Shown: positions 7,360 to 38,636 of the stretch, one piece after another
Layout: the number at the start of each line of letters is the position of its first letter
Position numbering within the stretch: the stretch's first letter is position 1
DNA from: Dehalococcoidia bacterium
GTDB lineage: Bacteria > Chloroflexota > Dehalococcoidia > Lucifugimonadales > UBA1127
NCBI GenBank assembly: GCA_029936935.1
Contig: JAPYRQ010000012.1
Coordinates: 1 to 39,508 of the forward strand
Length of the DNA: 39,508 nt
Reading direction: 5' to 3'
Position numbers and translations under genes: made by a program
Notes under the pieces: model-generated
Seen by the model: the letters and a program-made list of their open reading frames with translations, nothing else
Database searches by the model: none
Told to the model about the DNA's origin: nothing

Positions 7360-8193
7360 CTACTTGACTAGCAGCGTGTCGTCCAGGTTGGCCCATTCGG
7401 CAAAGGAACCATCGTAGTTCCTGACACGGTCATAGCCCATCAGCCTCAGGGTCAGCAGTCCGTGCGCCGCACGGATACCACCCTGTCAGTACGTTATGAC
7501 CTCTCTATCGGGCGTCACTCCTGCAGCATCAAGCAATACCTTTAGCTCCGCCGCGGACTTCCATGTCCTGTTCGGCTCAGCGTTCATAAAGTTGGTCCAC
7601 TCCAGATGAACAGCCCCGGGAATATGTCCGCTTCGCTTGTTCCCTCTGGTGACCTCTCCTGCCCACTCGCCGTCAGAGCGCATGTCCAGATAAAGCACCT
7701 TGGAGTCCTCAACGTGGGATTTACCGTAGTCCAGGGGACACAAGAGGTCTTCGTTGACAGCGGGCGTGAACCCCGGCGCAGAAACCTTCGGGATATCTCG
7801 AGAGACGGGTCGCCCTTCATGGAACCACTTCTCCCATCCACCGTTCAGCACCTTGGTATTGGTGTGGCCGTAGTAGTTCAGCGCCCACCACATCCGGGAT
7901 GCGGGCACACCGCCGGCAGTGTCATACGTGACCACAGTGGTATCGGGGCCAACACCCAGATCGCCCATCAACTTAGCAAACTGATCAGGCGGCATCACAT
8001 GCAGAGTGTCATCAGCGTCCTTGAGGTACGGGTTTACGCGCAGCCCTACGGCATTCTTGATATGCGCCTTCTGATAGAGATCAAACGTCGCGCAGTCGAT
8101 GACTCGTACATTCGCGTCATCTAAATGGGCTTCAAGCCAATCGGCATCGGCAAGGAGTTCTGGTCGAGCGTATTGGGTGGATGACTGGGTCAT
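7360..8193 (-). CDS. sseA: Two-domain rhodanese (thiosulfate/3-mercaptopyruvate sulfurtransferase), predicted selenoprotein with UGA = Sec236
   Basis: The frame runs from ATG 8193 (CAGGAGG 7 nt upstream) to an in-frame TGA at 7488-7486 and continues without a stop to TAG 7362-7360: 277 residues, normal for SseA-type enzymes (about 280). Residues ~10-125 form the inactive N-terminal rhodanese domain (RVIDCATFDLY, DTAGGVPASRMWW, NGGWEKW). Residues ~145-277 form the catalytic one (YLDMRSDGEW, SGHIPGAVHLEW). The TGA is exactly at the active-site cysteine: EVITY-U-QGGIRAAHGL, against the family's YCxxGxRA. The continuation RLMGYDRVRNYDGSFAEW is textbook rhodanese C-terminus. A SECIS-like hairpin begins right after the TGA. 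The family transfers sulfane sulfur to cyanide or thiols through a Cys persulfide; here Sec would replace it. Automatic annotation would truncate the gene at 7486. Confidence 0.9.
7447..7485 (-). promoter_or_regulatory. Predicted bacterial SECIS element of the Sec-rhodanese
   Basis: On the minus strand, directly after the TGA: CAGGGT (7485-7480) pairs with ACCCTG (7452-7447). An internal loop GGTA/CTGCTG leads to a perfect 7-bp stem TCCGTGC/GCACGGA (7475-7469 with 7465-7459) capped by GGC (7468-7466). The first apical G is 17 nt after the TGA. This fits the known bacterial rule: a small apical loop with G in its first two positions, about 16-37 nt from the UGA, to be bound by SelB. Confidence 0.8.
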
Positions 8194-38055: not shown

Positions 38056-38117
38056 AGGCACAGATTCAGCGGCGTGGGGGTATTGGTAGCCTTACGTGCT
38101 GATAGGCAGGAGTGAAT

Positions 38118-38636
38118 ATGGCAGACGCAACCCAGAGGCAGAAGACCCCTACACGGTACTTCACCGCCGAGGGAGTCGGCGAGACTCTGGACAAACACAT
38201 GAAGAAAGTCACAGTGAAGGGCAGAGAATTCCTGTGCGATGAGAGCGTAGCTTTCGGCGGCAGCGATTCCGCGCCAGGATCTATGGACTACTTTGTTGCG
38301 GCGATCCTCTTCTGAAAGATGTCCCAAATCGGCAGGTTTGCCGATATGTTCAAAGTAGAACTCACCAAGGTCCGTTCCCACATCATTGCCCATGAGATGG
38401 CTGAGGGATCCGCTATCGAGGAATCGATATATGGCATATGCACCAGCATCGAGACGACCTACGAGATTGAGTCACCATCCAATCCTGCCCTTGTGGCAAA
38501 GGTGATTCGAAACGCTCGCAAGGCATGCATGATTGGCAACACGGTCAGTGTAGGCGTGCCCATCGAGGATTCGTTCACCCTGAACGGTGCCGTGTTTGAT
38601 TCAGAATCCTATCCAAAGACACAGGCCTCGGCGTAA
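38118..38636 (+). CDS. OsmC-family protein, predicted selenoprotein with UGA = Sec66
   Basis: ATG 38118 has AGGAG at 6-nt spacing. The frame reaches an in-frame TGA at 38313-38315 and continues without a stop to TAA 38634-38636: 172 residues, normal for OsmC. The TGA falls at the first catalytic Cys of OsmC/Ohr proteins: GGSDSAPGSMDYFVAAILF-U-KMSQIGRF, where Cys follows the 'P...LL.A...' helix. The second conserved Cys is present as Cys137 in RNARKACMIGNTV. A SECIS-like hairpin follows the TGA. OsmC/Ohr proteins reduce organic hydroperoxides with a Cys pair; a Sec-Cys pair would be the redox centre here. Automatic annotation would split this into two ORFs. An MFS gene follows after 11 bp. Confidence 0.9.
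38316..38345 (+). promoter_or_regulatory. Predicted bacterial SECIS element of the Sec-OsmC gene
   Basis: After the TGA, 12 nt lead to a perfect 7-bp stem ATCGGCA (38328-38334) with TGCCGAT (38339-38345) and the apical loop GGTT. The first loop G is 19 nt after the TGA, within the 16-37 nt range expected for bacterial SECIS elements read by SelB. Confidence 0.8.

Follow-up and report, generated by a model that had tools for sequence, protein, structure and literature searches.

An OsmC-family gene with a predicted selenocysteine at its first active-site position in a Dehalococcoidia genome, and two further OsmC clades with in-frame TGA

Known OsmC-family selenoproteins and the gene at 38118–38636

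OsmC-like selenoproteins carrying a UxxT motif have been known from the Sargasso Sea since 2005 (PMC1088965) and also appear in the GOS survey (PMC2398784). A 2026 catalogue lists them in its Table 1 as "OsmC-like protein, UxxT"; this is its one OsmC entry, and different Sec positions are treated there as distinct subfamilies (PMC13188914). Among Cys-form relatives, the organic hydroperoxide reductases (Ohr) work through a cycle in which oxidation of the peroxidatic Cys is followed by its resolution through a second Cys, the resulting disulfide being reduced by a lipoylated protein (PMC5962072). The Ohr catalytic triad includes a Glu that precedes the peroxidatic Cys by 10 residues (Glu51 and Cys61 in XfOhr; PMC5962072). 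By sequence, the closest solved relative of the protein described here is the Jannaschia OsmC-like protein (PDB 3cje; 2.1e-18 with the family profile), which has a Cys where our protein has the predicted Sec.

The gene lies in a 39,508-nucleotide stretch of Dehalococcoidia DNA (the window). Positions 38118–38636 (+) form a single read-through frame for a 172-residue OsmC protein, running from an ATG at 38118 to a TAA that ends at 38636 and interrupted solely by a TGA at 38313–38315; a Shine–Dalgarno-like AGGAG (38108–38112, +) lies upstream of the ATG. An earlier, sequence-only reading had proposed that two same-frame ORFs (38112–38315 and 38319–38636), separated by the TGA plus one AAG codon, together make one complete OsmC protein. 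Both the frame and the profile matches bear this out, as the read-through protein matches Pfam PF02566 (1.1e-13) and NCBIfam NF041052, "OsmC-related (seleno)protein" (2.2e-34; 118.5 bits, above the curated cut-off of 95 bits). The TGA is codon 66 and coincides in the alignment with the first active-site Cys, where NF041052 expects either Sec (TGA) or Cys. The second (resolving) Cys column, nearly invariant across the family, is kept as Cys137 (TGC, 38526–38528, +), so that the family alignment agrees with the placement of both residues first made from the sequence.

The window protein is 23–39% identical to aligned family members outside its own genus. It shares with the NF041052/UxxT family the Sec at the first active-site position and a downstream SECIS-like hairpin, and differs in its motif: UKMS (UxxS) in the window protein and its closest relative, UxxT in most others. 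Since Ser replaces Thr within one clade, we assign the gene to NF041052, as a member with a variant motif. By sequence comparison, the window gene is a divergent UxxS member of the catalogued NF041052 selenoprotein family; its reading as a selenoprotein is predicted with good support, and is not new. The proposal that this OsmC-family protein is the second selenoprotein of the window stands, though the family had already been catalogued (NF041052; PMC1088965; PMC13188914), which makes the gene less surprising than first suggested.

Relatives show the alternation expected of a Sec/Cys position. Across 98 related genomes, 33 NF041052 matches exceed the cut-off, 32 with TGA and one (L069) with Cys; TAA or TAG, whose presence at the site would have spoken against Sec, occurs in none of these 33. 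In the alignment, TGA occupies the column in 31 members and Cys in two paralogues and in PDB 3cje; one of these two paralogues (C97, L053) belongs to the same genome as the window and scores just below the NF041052 cut-off. A second family copy in another genome (L067, G034:C3:4035–4451) has an extra TGA, a second Cys changed to Ser and an altered hairpin loop, and looks like a decaying paralogue. The EamA and MFS transporter genes next to the OsmC gene recur at the single further same-genus locus (L049/L052); more distant loci, compared over 1.5 kb to either side, gave no match for them.

The SECIS-like hairpin and the selenocysteine machinery

Downstream of the TGA, positions 38328–38345 (+) form a 7-bp hairpin with a GGUU loop (AUCGGCA-GGUU-UGCCGAU). 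The hairpin had been noted before at 19 nt past the TGA; the element itself holds, but the 19 nt run to the start of the loop, and the stem already begins at 12 nt. A hairpin close behind the UGA with a small, G-bearing apical loop is how bacterial SECIS elements are described (PMC1088965), and the window hairpin has this form. The two strands of the window together contain 1392 TGA trinucleotides, and just two of these, at 38313 (+) and 36036 (−), are followed at SECIS distance by a GGTN loop on a stem no shorter than 6 bp. The 51-nt stretch containing the hairpin folds at −11.5 kcal/mol (z of −2.0 against shuffles); this folding energy by itself is modest and unremarkable, and the comparative evidence carries the case.

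TGA and hairpin keep their place throughout the 31 aligned family genes, and the stem shows compensatory base changes. In the common register 80% of cells are paired and both-sided changes are seen in 31 cells, against a shuffle mean of 11; because the stem overlaps conserved codons, part of this conservation possibly comes from the protein, making it good evidence that is not protein-independent. The window and a few other members pair one base shifted relative to the common register. A single 7-bp register for the whole family was rejected: that of the window fits a subgroup only (45% of cells paired), and the one shifted by one base fits most others. Counting against the element, no more than a short stem forms in a few members, such as L024, L026, L029, L030 and L067.

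The genome (2.05 Mb, 94.6% complete, 105 contigs) encodes the set that bacterial selenoprotein synthesis requires, namely a tRNA-Sec (70.8 bits, anticodon TCA) together with SelB (341 bits), SelA (555 bits) and SelD (380 bits), all over their cut-offs in family profile searches. Absence of this machinery would have told against the selenoprotein reading; it is found in full. SelA exceeds its cut-off in 84 of the 98 genomes of the order. The SelD gene (L018, G000:C99:11065–11988, minus) carries an in-frame TGA, and SelD of this genome is probably itself a selenoprotein.

The window holds a further candidate at 7360–8193 (−), a two-domain sulfurtransferase of the 3-mercaptopyruvate type with a TGA (7486–7488) at the catalytic Cys (U-Q-G-G-I-R, within UQGGIRAAH) and, after it, a stable hairpin (−24.6 kcal/mol). 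Rhodanese-type selenoproteins with a UxxG motif have been catalogued (PMC13188914). A sulfurtransferase paralogue at G000:C101, 40% identical, also has one TGA inside the match.

Proposed chemistry and alternative readings

From gene, relatives, hairpin and machinery we conclude with high confidence that the product of the OsmC-family gene would contain Sec, UGA66 being read by SelB and tRNA-Sec with the aid of the downstream hairpin; machinery and element are identified in the sequence, and from them we infer the decoding. An AlphaFold model of the protein (pLDDT 92) has OsmC structures as its best structural matches, and would place Sec66 at the first active-site position, in a long helix, and Cys137 at the other. 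If it works as Ohr/OsmC do, Sec66 may attack a peroxide, or another small oxidant of that sort, to give a selenenic acid, which Cys137 would resolve to a selenenylsulfide; a cellular thiol reductant would then reduce the latter. Both chemistry and substrate are proposed here by homology.

The most durable alternative differs in this chemistry only: a true selenoprotein that is not a peroxidase, acting instead as a Sec-dependent reductase or on another electrophile. The window protein has the fold and both active-site positions of Cys-form Ohr/OsmC enzymes, which argues for peroxidase activity. However, it has Sec at the first position and lacks the Ohr triad Glu at its place: the alignment shows Met56 there, and in most relatives a Leu or a Met. 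The residues invariant in the window's family (D41, E42, P53, Y58, R73, N156, G157) also differ from those of the Cys-form enzymes, and characterised Ohr proteins are no more than distant relatives of the family. Lacking the triad Glu, the Sec family may not share the peroxidase activity, and we regard a non-peroxidase function as a tangible possibility, albeit the less favoured one. Hence, the earlier description of the TGA-encoded residue as "peroxidatic" survives as a match of columns, made by alignment only, with a putative substrate.

The remaining alternatives concern whether Sec is inserted at all. Translation could stop at the TGA and restart two codons on, at the ATG of 38319, to give two proteins; TGA-GAG-ATG is indeed common among relatives. 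Many members, however, read TGA-CTG-CTN, where CTG is the one codon that could serve as a start, neither half would make up a complete OsmC domain, and the hairpin covaries, so that a restart seems very improbable. In a fragmented assembly such as this one single-base errors are possible, and the TGA could reflect one of these, or a nonsense mutation in a pseudogene. Yet the same TGA is found in a separate same-genus assembly (L049/L052; protein 91–95% identical) as well as in the 31 aligned family genes. Compared with the same-genus assembly, the sequence downstream of the TGA gives a dN/dS of 0.041/0.55, with 28 of 38 changes at third positions; the codons past the TGA are under purifying selection. 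A TGA conserved across independent assemblies, with purifying selection behind it, refutes an error or pseudogene, to which we give next to no credence, in line with the earlier judgement that chance or sequencing error was very unlikely. Finally, that TGA is a sense codon such as Trp throughout the organism is suggested by nothing beyond the in-frame TGA itself and is extremely unlikely, given that Cys-form relatives align a Cys and not a Trp at the site, that only two TGA read-through frames flanked on either side by a protein-family match were recognised in the window, each with its TGA at a catalytic Cys, and that the full Sec machinery is present.

Other OsmC clades with in-frame TGA

Selenocysteine in the OsmC superfamily appears to extend beyond the family of the window gene. 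A PF02566 search of the window's genome returned four OsmC genes, two of which contain a TGA, and the search for two further clades covered the window's own phylum. Clade 2 comprises 11 loci with TGA at the first Cys column and the motif U-T-A-M-T, one of them in the window's genome (L074; C15 = G000:C15:4326–4634, minus) and the others being L054–L057, L059–L063 and L065. In clade 3 the arrangement is the opposite: the first column holds Cys, and the TGA falls where the second, resolving Cys would be (motif C...UPLY). Its 22 loci, all in other genomes (L058, L064, L077–L095 and L099), divide into 2 among the order relatives and 20 in the 25 matching genomes of the phylum search; Cys forms are also present (L096, L098). 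SelA is over its cut-off in 24 of these 25 genomes and in both order relatives that hold clade 3.

Clade 3 genes carry a hairpin of their own, GGUYGC-NGUN-GCRACC, located 14 nt past the UGA and pairing in 21 of 21 aligned sequences. A C-G to U-A exchange occurs in five sequences, and the same stretch is conserved at the codon level as well; the two Cys-form homologues lack the VAVAT codons that make up this hairpin. In a quick tree, one with long branches, the three TGA clades stand apart (L066 being a TGA member of the first), and the two Cys members of clade 3 nest within it. The one clade 2 and two clade 3 proteins tested did not reach the NF041052 cut-off, nor do they match the lone OsmC entry of the 2026 catalogue.

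Because the 2026 catalogue has a single OsmC entry, UxxT, and classes Sec positions separately, clades 2 and 3 are probably unlisted there, and a literature search of open-access papers found no OsmC or Ohr protein described as containing Sec outside the known family. Both clades may represent new OsmC selenoprotein groups. We consider it likely that no fewer than three separate OsmC clades have taken up Sec, and that between them it occupies either catalytic position: the first in the window family and clade 2, the resolving one in clade 3.

Naming the window gene aids annotation of the selenoprotein-rich Dehalococcoidia, where ordinary annotation splits such genes in two. The clades beyond the window matter more than the window gene itself, a divergent and well-supported addition to a catalogued family. 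If they are what they seem, the OsmC fold lends itself naturally to comparing selenium in the attacking role with selenium in the resolving one, and clade 3, which combines a resolving Sec with an attacking Cys, would allow the chemical reason for Sec to be tested within one fold.
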